Positions 1,039 to 33,393 of a stretch of 38,734 bases of DNA are shown here, piece after piece. The notes beneath the pieces were generated by a model that was not told where the DNA came from, made no database searches, and saw only the letters and a list, made by a program, of their open reading frames with translations. Source of the stretch: Ignavibacteria bacterium (lineage in GTDB: Bacteria; Bacteroidota; Ignavibacteria; UBA10030); assembly GCA_016873805.1 (NCBI GenBank), contig VGVZ01000027.1:1-38734 (forward strand), read 5' to 3'. How positions within the stretch are numbered: the stretch's first letter is position 1; each line of letters starts with the position of its first letter. The translations under genes were made by a program, and so were the position numbers.

Positions 1039-1067
1039 TTGACTGCCAGAGCAATTTTCAATATTTT
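1039..1067 (+). promoter_or_regulatory. sigma70-type promoter upstream of the tRNA-Pro region
   Basis: TTGACT (1039-1044), a 17-bp spacer, then TATTTT (1062-1067). It lies about 65 bp before the truncated tRNA-Pro 5' fragment at 1134 and about 210 bp before the intact gene. This spacing would be more natural if the gene originally began at 1134. Assigned by inspection only. Confidence 0.5.
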
Positions 1068-1096
1068 GAATCGTCAATGCCGCAGAGCACGCAGTG

Positions 1097-1143
1097 CGAA
1101 GCGGGACTCAGCATTATCGAATCTGGATTTCATCGGGGTGTAG
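1097..1143 (+). repeat. direct repeat copy A: tRNA-Pro flank plus first 10 nt of tRNA-Pro
   Basis: These 47 bases recur at 1242-1288 with 45 of 47 identical (differences at the fifth base and in ATCTGG/ATCTAG). The last 10 bases, CGGGGTGTAG, are the 5' acceptor strand and start of the D-arm of tRNA-Pro. After this point the copy departs from the tRNA into a hairpin-rich segment, so it is a 5' tRNA remnant or duplication, not a gene. Confidence 0.85.
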
Positions 1144-1147
1144 TCCC

Positions 1148-1251
1148 AATTCGACTGAACTTAGCAAGCGAAGCGCAGCTAAGTTTAATGTCGAATTGTC
1201 CGAAGGACCCCTTTGGGGAGGATCCCGTTGAGAACGGAGTTCGAAACGGGA
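1148..1251. repeat. string of palindromes between the two tRNA-Pro 5' copies
   Basis: Four consecutive stem-loops fill the segment: AATTCGAC (1148-1155) with GTCGAATT (1190-1197), containing AACTTAGC (1158-1165) with GCTAAGTT (1178-1185); GTCC/GGAC (1198-1208); CCCC/GGGG around TTT (1208-1218); and TCCCGTT (1223-1229) with AACGGGA (1245-1251), containing GAAC/GTTC. No coding potential is apparent. The AATTCGAC/GTCGAATT arms recur beside tRNA-Glu at 32924-32967. Confidence 0.75.
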
Positions 1252-1288
1252 CTCAGCATTATCGAATCTAGATTTCATCGGGGTGTAG
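1242..1288 (+). repeat. direct repeat copy B: 5' flank and start of the intact tRNA-Pro
   Basis: Second copy of the 47-bp repeat, offset 145 bp from copy A. This copy runs on into the complete tRNA-Pro, so a functional gene is regenerated on the right of the inserted or duplicated segment. Confidence 0.85.
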
Positions 1289-1353
1289 CTCAGCCCGGCT
1301 AGAGCACCTGCCTTGGGCGCAGGGGGCCGGAGGTTCAAATCCTCTCACCCCGA
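1279..1353 (+). tRNA. tRNA-Pro (anticodon UGG)
   Basis: Acceptor arms CGGGGTG (1279-1285) and CACCCCG (1346-1352) pair over 7 bp, with discriminator A at 1353. The anticodon stem CCTGC/GCAGG encloses a 7-nt loop with TGG at positions 34-36. The T-arm is GGAGG, TTCAAAT, CCTCT. The C1-G72 pair is typical of bacterial tRNA-Pro. CCA is not encoded. A 5' fragment of the same tRNA lies at 1134-1143. Confidence 0.93.
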
Positions 1354-1363
1354 CGATGAAACG

Positions 1364-32357: not shown

Positions 32358-32370
32358 CGAAGAGAGATGT

Positions 32371-32409
32371 AAATTGTAGATTGAAAATTGAAGATTGAGA
32401 ATTGGGGGG
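32371..32409. repeat. left AT-rich inverted repeat flanking the IVP/S23 gene
   Basis: Purine-rich, imperfectly repetitive ATTG/GATTGA units (for example ATTGAAGATTGAGAATTGGG) ending in a G run. The reverse complement of the segment at 32773-32817 contains near-identical units, so the two form imperfect inverted repeats around the small gene. Confidence 0.65.
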
Positions 32410-32412
32410 AGC

Positions 32413-32763
32413 GTGACGCCTGATGAATTGAAGCGCCGGACGAAGATGTTTGCGACGCGAATCGTGTGGTTTGCTGAAGAGTTGCCCGAAGGTCGATCGA
32501 TCAACGTAGTGACTCGCCAGCTTGTTCGTTCCGGGACTTCGGTCGCTGCAAACTACCGGGCGGCGTGCTTGGGGCGCTCGAAGGCGGAGTTCAACGCGAA
32601 GCTCCATATCGTGCTCGAAGAGGTCGACGAGACGGTTTACTGGTTGGAGGTTTTGGAGGAATCCGCTTTGACCAATAGTAAGGACCTCGACGAACTCAAA
32701 CGAGAAGGCAAAGAACTCACGGCGATCTTCATCTCGTCGTTGAAAACCTCGCGGTCAAAGTAG
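32413..32763 (+). CDS. four-helix-bundle protein (23S rRNA intervening-sequence protein, S23/IVP family)
   Basis: 116 residues from GTG at 32413, chosen because homologues begin MTPxELKxRTKxFA and this reads (V)TPDELKRRTKMFATRIV; the frame is open to a TTG at 32395. Core motifs: LPEGRSINVVTRQLVRSGTS, SVAANYRAACLGRSKAEFNA, KLHIVLEEVDETVYWLEVLE. The family (TIGR02436-like, related to the Avd accessory protein of diversity-generating retroelements) occurs inside 23S rRNA intervening sequences of Leptospira and Coxiella and free-standing in many FCB and candidate-phylum genomes; its biochemical role is unknown, nucleic-acid binding is suspected. It lies alone between tRNA-His and tRNA-Glu and is framed by inverted repeats, which looks like a discrete inserted unit. 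Confidence 0.88.
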   Translation: MTPDELKRRTKMFATRIVWFAEELPEGRSINVVTRQLVRSGTSVAANYRAACLGRSKAEFNAKLHIVLEEVDETVYWLEVLEESALTNSKDLDELKREGKELTAIFISSLKTSRSK

Positions 32764-32772
32764 CCCATCATC

Positions 32773-32817
32773 ATCAATCTTCAATCCTCAATCTCAAATC
32801 TTCAATTCTCAATCCCC
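32773..32817. repeat. right AT-rich inverted repeat flanking the IVP/S23 gene
   Basis: Pyrimidine-rich TCAATC/CTTCAAT units running up to the first base of tRNA-Glu; their complement matches the left repeat (ATTGAGAATTGAAGATT-type units). Confidence 0.65.
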
Positions 32818-32890
32818 GCCCCCATCGTCTAGAGGCCTAGGACACGAGCTTTTCAAGCTTGGAACACCGGTTCGAATCCGGTTGGGGGCA
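32818..32890 (+). tRNA. tRNA-Glu (anticodon UUC)
   Basis: Acceptor GCCCCCA (32818-32824) with TGGGGGC (32883-32889), discriminator A at 32890. The anticodon stem CGAGC/GCTTG encloses a loop with TTC at 34-36. The T-arm is ACCGG, TTCGAAT, CCGGT. CCA is not encoded. Its last 10 bases begin the 142-bp tandem repeat that follows. Confidence 0.95.
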
Positions 32891-33022
32891 CAATGGGGTC
32901 CCGACAGAAAACGTCGGGATCCTCAATTCGACAACGACTCACTGAGAAACGTTCGTCGGTCGAATTGGGACTTGGAACACGAGTTCGCCTGCCCGCCGGA
33001 GCGAAGCGTAGGCAGGAATCTC
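32881..33022 (+). repeat. 142-bp tRNA-Glu-associated repeat, unit 1
   Basis: The unit begins with the real tRNA-Glu 3' end (GTTGGGGGCA). It then contains a hairpin TCCCGAC/GTCGGGA (32899-32919), a second hairpin CAATTCGAC/GTCGAATTG (32924-32967), and from CTTGGAACAC (32971) a tRNA-Glu 3' half with T-stem ACGAG/CTCGT. The T-loop is split after TTCG by a 29-nt palindromic insert (32988-33016, arms CCTGCC/GGCAGG) before AAT. The acceptor end is completed by the first bases of the next unit. Confidence 0.9.
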
Positions 33023-33164
33023 GTTGGGGGCACAATGGGGTCCCGACAGAAAACGTCGGGATCCTCAATTCGACAACGACTCACTGAGAAACGTTCGTCG
33101 GTCGAATTGGGACTTGGAACACGAGTTCGCCTGCCCGCCGGAGCGAAGCGTAGGCAGGAATCTC
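33023..33164 (+). repeat. 142-bp tRNA-Glu-associated repeat, unit 2
   Basis: Identical to unit 1 base for base on reading both through, including the 29-nt T-loop insert (33130-33158). Complete identity of non-coding sequence indicates recent duplication or gene conversion. Confidence 0.9.
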
Positions 33165-33303
33165 GTTGGGGGCACAATGGGGTCCCGACAGAAAACGTCG
33201 GGATCCTCAATTCGACAACGACTCACTGAGAAACGTTCGTCGGTCGAATTGGGACTTGGAACACAAGTTCGCCTGCCCGCCGGAGCGAAGCGTAGGCGGG
33301 ATT
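33165..33303 (+). repeat. 142-bp tRNA-Glu-associated repeat, unit 3 (diverging end)
   Basis: Matches units 1 and 2 except ACACAAG for ACACGAG in the T-stem and GGCGGGATT for GGCAGGAAT at the end of the insert, after which it leaves the repeat. Confidence 0.88.
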
Positions 33304-33305
33304 CT

Positions 33306-33346
33306 GAATTCGGCGGTTCCGACACAAATCGTCGGAAGCCGAATTC
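33306..33346. repeat. additional perfect hairpin inside the decayed fourth tRNA-Glu 3' end
   Basis: GAATTCGGC (33306-33314) and TTCCGAC (33317-33323) pair with GTCGGAA (33331-33337) and GCCGAATTC (33338-33346). Four bases later comes GTTGGGGGCA (33350-33359), a fourth copy of the tRNA-Glu acceptor end. This looks like a second palindromic insertion into the same tRNA remnant. Confidence 0.8.
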
Positions 33347-33393
33347 GAAGTTGGGGGCACGACATAGTTGTGAATTGAGGATTGGGGAATTTG

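Follow-up and report, generated by a model that had tools for sequence, protein, structure and literature searches.

A hairpin-split tRNA-Pro duplicate in an Ignavibacteria genome, a likely nuclease-less companion or relic of a gene-restoring GIY-YIG homing element

The tRNA-Pro locus

The window, that is, the whole stretch of 38,734 nucleotides analysed here, is one contig (C27) of a 3.2-Mb Ignavibacteria bacterium genome assembled in 60 contigs. Near its start, a broken duplicate of the 5' end of tRNA-Pro(TGG) precedes the intact gene, and a related arrangement is found at tRNA-Glu(TTC) towards the other end (Table 1).

Table 1. Features at the tRNA-Pro(TGG) and tRNA-Glu(TTC) loci of the window
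Feature	Position	Strand	Basis
Sigma70-like promoter, presumed driver of the tRNA transcript	1039..1067	+	TTGACT-17-TATTTT, 9/12, consensus match only
Hairpin-end remnant of the preceding unit (ends GCGGGA)	1077..1106	+	Aligns with 1222-1251 in the 67-nt repeat
First copy of tRNA nt 11-16 (CTCAGC) and 21-nt linker	1107..1133	+	Sequence; 45/47 repeat
Broken tRNA-Pro nt 1-10 (CGGGGTGTAG)	1134..1143	+	Insert after nt 10; left match 10, right match 6
108-bp palindromic double hairpin between tRNA nt 10 and 11	1144..1251	+	Model R1, 76 bits; covariation, 13 copies
Broken tRNA-Pro nt 11-16 (CTCAGC)	1252..1257	+	Insertion-point alignment; 45/47 repeat
21-nt linker, in frame into the tRNA as IIESRFHRGVAQPG*	1258..1278	+	Sequence; compare GIY-YIG C-termini
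Intact tRNA-Pro(TGG)	1279..1354	+	ARAGORN; Rfam tRNA, 65 bits
Intact tRNA-Glu(TTC), 3'-side version of the same phenomenon downstream	32818..32891	+	
Three tandem 142-bp units: minus-orientation double hairpin and broken tRNA-Glu 3' piece (nt 41-74)	32874..33360	+	

A repeat search aligned two copies of 67 nt (1077-1143 and 1222-1288), which are identical at 59 of 67 positions (88%) and offset by 145 bp. An earlier note on this DNA had described a 47-bp repeat with the same offset, ending in the first 10 nt of tRNA-Pro; this repeat is real (1097-1143 and 1242-1288, 45/47 identical) and forms the core of the longer one. What the earlier reader missed is that the hairpin block sits precisely between nt 10 and nt 11 (10^11) of the broken tRNA copy, as an exact insertion, for the block ends at 1251 and the tRNA then resumes with nt 11-16, CTCAGC. 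The left repeat copy is a broken tRNA-Pro 5' piece made of nt 1-10, the double hairpin and nt 11-16, after which come the linker and the intact gene. Because the end of another hairpin block comes before the left copy, the 145 bp constitute a tandem unit.

The two hairpins of this block are TCCCAATTCGAC..GTCGAATTG (A) and TCCCGTT..AACGGGA (B). The predicted fold of the region is more stable than that of shuffled sequences, at -82.2 kcal/mol against -64.9 kcal/mol (z -3.7; 1 of 200 shuffles as good); this fold draws three stem-loops between the repeat copies, and the four that had been proposed are an alternative drawing. It had also been claimed that the promoter stands at normal tRNA distance from the truncated copy and not from the intact gene. 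The promoter is indeed nearer to the broken copy, whose first tRNA nucleotide (1134) follows it by 67 nt, than to the intact gene, which starts at 1279, but 67 nt is not an especially normal distance for a tRNA.

The frame of the linker is open and ends in RGVAQPG*, the same ending as that of the GIY-YIG proteins at tRNA-Pro in two relatives (G036 and G046). This resemblance hints that the linker could be a GIY-YIG C-terminus, and it stays a hint because the stretch is too short and GIY-YIG frames vary between tRNAs. A domain model built from 11 tRNA-linked GIY-YIG proteins, which also served for the phylum loci and the tree below, found no GIY-YIG domain in the 700 bp on each side of the window tRNA-Pro. 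NCBIfam gave no useful name, and a leader recognised by Rfam was rejected because tRNA alone reaches its cut-off in 900-1500. Among 60 relatives, none was found in which tRNA-Pro is syntenic with the SpoIIE-type phosphatase gene that follows it here; thus, this comparison gave no orthologous empty site for the window locus itself.

At tRNA-Glu(TTC), each broken 3' piece is itself split by another hairpin. A fourth hairpin match, at 33275-33349, is weaker. Furthermore, a gene for a 23S-rRNA-intervening-sequence protein (PF05635, 32395-32760) sits between tRNA-His and tRNA-Glu and is enclosed by 37-nt inverted AT-rich repeats (78%; region 32362-32810), as if an rRNA-type intervening sequence sat between the tRNAs.

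Broken tRNA pieces and GIY-YIG genes in the genome and its relatives

The genome contains 45 tRNA genes according to Rfam and 46 according to ARAGORN. When each was aligned to its own 400-bp flanks, a piece of the same tRNA was found in 15 of the 92 flanks (score of at least 26), whereas controls with other isotypes lead one to expect 0.45. About a third of the tRNA genes (16/46) have a broken own piece or an adjacent small GIY-YIG gene, namely Pro-TGG, Pro-GGG, Ile, Val, Asn, Asp, Glu-TTC, Glu-CTC, Gly-CCC, Met, Gln, Arg-ACG, Arg-TCG, Arg-CCT, Ser-GGA and Ser-TGA. Tandem units are present at Val (136 bp), Glu (142 bp, three times), Gly (139 bp), Pro-GGG (363 bp) and Ser-GGA (361 bp). The inserts in the broken pieces are palindromes that lie exactly between adjacent tRNA nucleotides; such exact-insert readings number 75 in 172 own-tRNA comparisons versus 16 in 1734 other-tRNA controls, where the 75 include several readings of single tandem arrays and the 86 loci are not a random sample, many having been fetched for their GIY-YIG or hairpin matches.

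The phenomenon extends beyond tRNA. Downstream of a 5S rRNA gene (L225, G000:C21 near 26382) there are repeated, hairpin-split 3' pieces of 5S, each followed by a terminator. Remnants of tRNA-Glu(CTC), each with a hairpin module, also lie 36 and 68 kb from the intact gene (G000:C1 129427-197866; L100, L221, L227), and these are possibly the ends of genomic islands.

At Pro-GGG, Ser-GGA and Arg-ACG, a GIY-YIG protein (Pfam PF01541) is encoded between the broken piece and the intact tRNA, in a frame that continues into the tRNA. PF01541 has 12 matches in this genome, one of which is UvrC-sized, and 8 of the 11 others are within 500 bp of a tRNA. Among relatives, the same holds for 9 of 25 fetched GIY-YIG loci (28 minus three UvrC-sized), and the broken tRNA piece, the GIY-YIG gene and the intact tRNA form one cassette. 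The broken piece is on the far side of the GIY-YIG gene at Val, Arg, Ser, Pro, Asp, Leu, Ala and Lys loci. Where the gene is upstream of the tRNA, the piece beyond it is a 5' piece (Val nt 1-32, twice; Arg 1-29; Ser 1-21), and where the gene is downstream, it is a 3' piece (Asp 31-78, Leu 44-87, Ala 44-74, Ser 36-90). At two Asn loci (L202, L206) a GIY-YIG gene is adjacent and a broken piece was not detected. A draw of 40 genomes from the phylum gave tRNA adjacency at 7 of 27 newly fetched GIY-YIG loci, five with a broken piece. In a tree of 58 GIY-YIG domains, which are not a random sample since many loci were chosen by GIY-YIG or hairpin matches, all 26 tRNA-adjacent domains lie on the strand of their tRNA and belong to a single 34-member clade (support 100/99) that is subdivided by isotype; none of the other 24 rows is tRNA-adjacent.

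Empty and occupied sites could be paired in two same-genus comparisons, from genera (g26 and g8) other than that of the window. In g26, tRNA-Pro(TGG) is empty in G041 and has 584 extra bp in G046, with flanks that can be aligned over 363 bp at 85% and 658 bp at 79%. The G046 array begins with broken nt 1-24, a double hairpin, broken nt 1-28 and a GIY-YIG ORF, which ends RGVAQPG* inside the next broken nt 1-24; a double hairpin and the intact tRNA follow. Its units of 137, 310 and 137 bp are two double-hairpin cassettes and one GIY-YIG cassette, so that one tRNA gene houses hairpin units like that of the window alongside a GIY-YIG unit. No integrase is present in the 584 bp, only the GIY-YIG ORF, and the linker of the hairpin units is unlike the end of the GIY-YIG unit.

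The second comparison concerns tRNA-Leu(CAA) in g8, where a terminator comes directly after the tRNA in G024 and G030 (empty); in G007, G028 and G026 the tRNA is followed by a GIY-YIG gene, a broken 3' piece with hairpins and a like terminator. The gene downstream is syntenic in G007, G024 and G030. Of the two, the tRNA-Pro(TGG) comparison speaks more decisively. In G028 and G026, lineage-specific substitutions are common to the intact and the broken tRNA-Leu (L169 and L170 versus L143, L173 and L174), a pattern in the sequences that suggests conversion (concerted evolution) between gene and fragment. Directly behind the tRNA-Leu cassette of G007 lies a repeat of ~190 bp (L143 1917-2112) that has many copies in that genome. 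Finally, a member of another family (G051) has a double hairpin exactly at 10^11 of tRNA-Pro(TGG), with a different linker.

The proposal of the earlier note, that a segment had inserted into the tRNA and restored the gene on its right-hand side, is largely right in the light of these alleles in g26 and g8 and of an architecture that recurs at many tRNAs. Empty sites, on whose existence in relatives that proposal was made to depend, are found at tRNA-Pro(TGG) in G041 and at tRNA-Leu(CAA) in G024 and G030. A different history would be tandem tRNA duplication and decay, in which REP-like palindromes land in the redundant copy and the GIY-YIG genes are unrelated passengers. This would fit the frequency of tandem arrays here and the position of the hairpins in broken copies, but I consider it unlikely: the far-side piece matches the side of the GIY-YIG gene, the tRNA-adjacent GIY-YIG genes all belong to one clade and all share the strand of the tRNA, and the native tRNA-Leu terminator comes after the broken piece in occupied sites and after the intact tRNA in empty ones.

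The double-hairpin family

Thirteen copies of the double hairpin were aligned, and 12 of 22 pairs show two-sided changes, with 97.8% of cells pairing and none of 500 shuffles matching this. The structure is thus kept while the sequence drifts. A covariance model trained on nine loci of the genome itself and four in relatives identified 26 double hairpins in the genome, of which 19 are within 450 bp of a tRNA (a hand count from listed positions). Four further hairpins are in remnants of tRNA-Glu, tRNA-Arg or 5S rRNA, as read by eye, and no RNA gene is visible at two adjacent matches on C1 (158894 and 159047) and a weak one on C15 (45788). Since the nine own loci had trained the model, the search was repeated in 40 relatives. 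There, a tRNA lies no more than 450 bp from 19 of the 27 hairpin loci fetched, and a tRNA remnant adjoins three others, one of the 27 being a training member and one of the remnants scoring 31 against a control maximum of 30. A 160-kb tRNA-free sample contained no match. The hairpins occur at many isotypes, upstream and downstream and in both orientations, and broken pieces of 5S rRNA contain them too. An exact 19-base hairpin pattern matches only two records among genome contigs (Ignavibacteria/Bacteroidota). A second type of double hairpin, GTCC..hairpin..GAGATCTC..hairpin..GGAC, is present in the broken copies at tRNA-Pro of G023 and G014 (L057/L064).

Short palindromes that keep their structure while their sequence drifts are known from the double-hairpin elements of Allomyces mtDNA and the REP/REPIN palindromes of bacteria, whereas those described here are mostly inside broken tRNA or 5S rRNA pieces. 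One might think of palindromes of the REP/REPIN type that Y1 (RAYT) transposases mobilise and that prefer tRNA genes; in favour of this, the genome has seven Y1_Tnp matches and the palindromes are inserted without target duplication. However, REPs have been characterised mainly as dispersed intergenic repeats, whereas nearly all hairpin copies are at RNA genes or RNA-gene remnants, and the hairpin model gave no match at any of the seven Y1_Tnp loci of the genome. I rejected a RAYT/REP origin on the latter ground and regard it as quite improbable.

Origin of the tRNA-Pro unit

I take 1097-1278 to be a nuclease-less, tandemly repeated cassette of a tRNA-invading, gene-restoring GIY-YIG homing family, and would put the probability of this at roughly 70%. 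The window unit is likely a companion or relic of such an element that has no nuclease, and not an integrase element. Of what characterises a gene-restoring homing element, the window has the partial duplicate, with the broken copy on the far side and the intact gene rebuilt. An endonuclease ORF is absent from the window unit and present at other tRNAs of the same genome and at tRNA-Pro(TGG) of G046, and empty and occupied alleles exist in relatives (g26 tRNA-Pro and g8 tRNA-Leu). Counting against this reading, the window unit is without a nuclease gene, its linker of 21 nt is too short to prove descent from one, the linker of the hairpin units in G046 does not match the end of the GIY-YIG unit, and there are the hairpin matches on C1 and C15 with no visible RNA gene and the two Asn loci with no detected broken piece.

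A cassette of this kind would lodge within a tRNA gene and supply a replacement for the part that it cuts off, so that it would end up between an intact tRNA and a broken 5' or 3' piece. Its autonomous form would carry one small GIY-YIG gene of ~300 bp, often with a frame running into the tRNA. The nuclease would presumably cut tRNA genes, and repair from a cassette-bearing copy would install the cassette and could amplify it in tandem, as reported for SegB in phage T6. Broken pieces would later gain palindromic hairpins as exact insertions with no target duplication. In the window, broken tRNA-Pro nt 1-16 would have taken the 108-bp double hairpin at 10^11, the nuclease gene would have been lost or would be supplied in trans, and duplication of one unit would give the 145-bp repeat. 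As for the palindromes, they may block excision between direct repeats, prevent base-pairing between broken pieces and the genuine tRNA, or label loops that the nuclease has cut.

A more elaborate and tentative proposal is a two-tier system, in which autonomous GIY-YIG cassettes of ~310-363 bp would mobilise hairpin cassettes of 137-145 bp in trans. Both would carry a replacement tRNA end and so be harmless in essential genes, and the hairpins would target broken tRNA or 5S loops. If this were true, few known gene-restoring mobile elements would be as small.

Integrase elements at tRNA att sites lie between a broken piece of the tRNA and a rebuilt copy of it, and the earlier note had drawn that parallel while finding the segment too short for an integrase. 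Insertion, rebuilding and the absence of an integrase are all supported, but the linked gene is a GIY-YIG nuclease instead. The scar of a conventional integrase-type genomic island at a tRNA-Pro att site, later deleted, would account for broken tRNA ends that look like classic att scars, and the distant tRNA-Glu(CTC) pieces do resemble island ends. Nevertheless, such a scar is very improbable here. Units of 137-145 bp and 310-363 bp stand in tandem at many tRNAs with a GIY-YIG gene only; the occupied tRNA-Pro site of G046 amounts to 584 bp and the window unit to 145 bp, neither with an integrase; and the junctions of these 137-363 bp units vary in their position within the tRNA and are often in its 5' half. 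A conserved structured leader, controlling for example tRNA-Pro processing or transcription, is scarcely credible despite the strong covariation (12/22 pairs) and the location between promoter and tRNA: the earlier note had asked whether the arrangement is a fixed leader in distant relatives, and the 5' piece is absent upstream of 22 of 26 tRNA-Pro(TGG) genes (with only 23 and 289 nt upstream covered at L040 and L138), no Rfam family beyond tRNA was found, and the hairpins are spread over many isotypes, both sides, both orientations and broken 5S rRNA pieces.

For a gene-restoring GIY-YIG cassette there are precedents in two other settings. Fungal mitochondrial mobile ORFs (mORFs), described for Allomyces macrogynus atp6 and for Glomus atp6, atp9, cox2 and nad3, comprise, in the available part of the account, a homing endonuclease gene within a host gene, along with a substitute for whatever part of that gene is displaced, and the native part persists beyond the ORF (PMC3630166). 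They resemble the tRNA cassettes in that an endonuclease gene brings the replacement for the part of the host gene that it displaces. According to the same part of that account, mORFs concern mitochondrial protein genes whose carboxy termini are replaced, and the described atp6 case is a LAGLIDADG ORF of ~1 kb (PMC3630166). Here, in contrast, the hosts are chromosomal tRNA genes of Bacteroidota, the GIY-YIG ORFs are tiny, the 5' or the 3' part is replaced, and there are tandem units and hairpin units without a nuclease.

SegB, a free-standing GIY-YIG nuclease of T-even phages, is likewise linked to tRNA genes, and in phage T6 tandem repeats of tRNA and truncated segB arose through a break and recombination of the tRNA 5' region with the segB 3' region, as far as the accessible text of that study relates (PMC13096335). 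The nuclease type, the link to tRNA genes and the tandem repeats are alike, but the setting is a phage tRNA cluster and phage recombination, and the accessible text describes no broken tRNA piece or hairpin insertions (PMC13096335). To the extent that these two sources were available, SegB is a precedent for tandem tRNA/GIY-YIG amplification and fungal mORFs are one for gene restoration. No description of such elements on bacterial chromosomes was found in open-licence PMC papers; the principles are known in kind, and the host, the target, the size and the hairpin units are new to the literature searched.

If the gene-restoring cassette reading is right, minimal selfish cassettes permanently occupy essential tRNA genes of a whole bacterial class and keep their host alive by returning the part that they break. 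One bacterial system would then link tRNA att sites, phage-tRNA homing nucleases and the gene-restoring ORFs of fungal mitochondria. It would offer natural empty and occupied sites for testing and would explain the small GIY-YIG genes beside Bacteroidota tRNAs. The ends of tRNA genes would be repeatedly overwritten, which bears on tRNA evolution as well as on false tRNA gene annotation. Such remnants can indeed mislead annotation: one broken tRNA-Leu piece (L169 1657-1746) was misread by ARAGORN as a tRNA-Gly.
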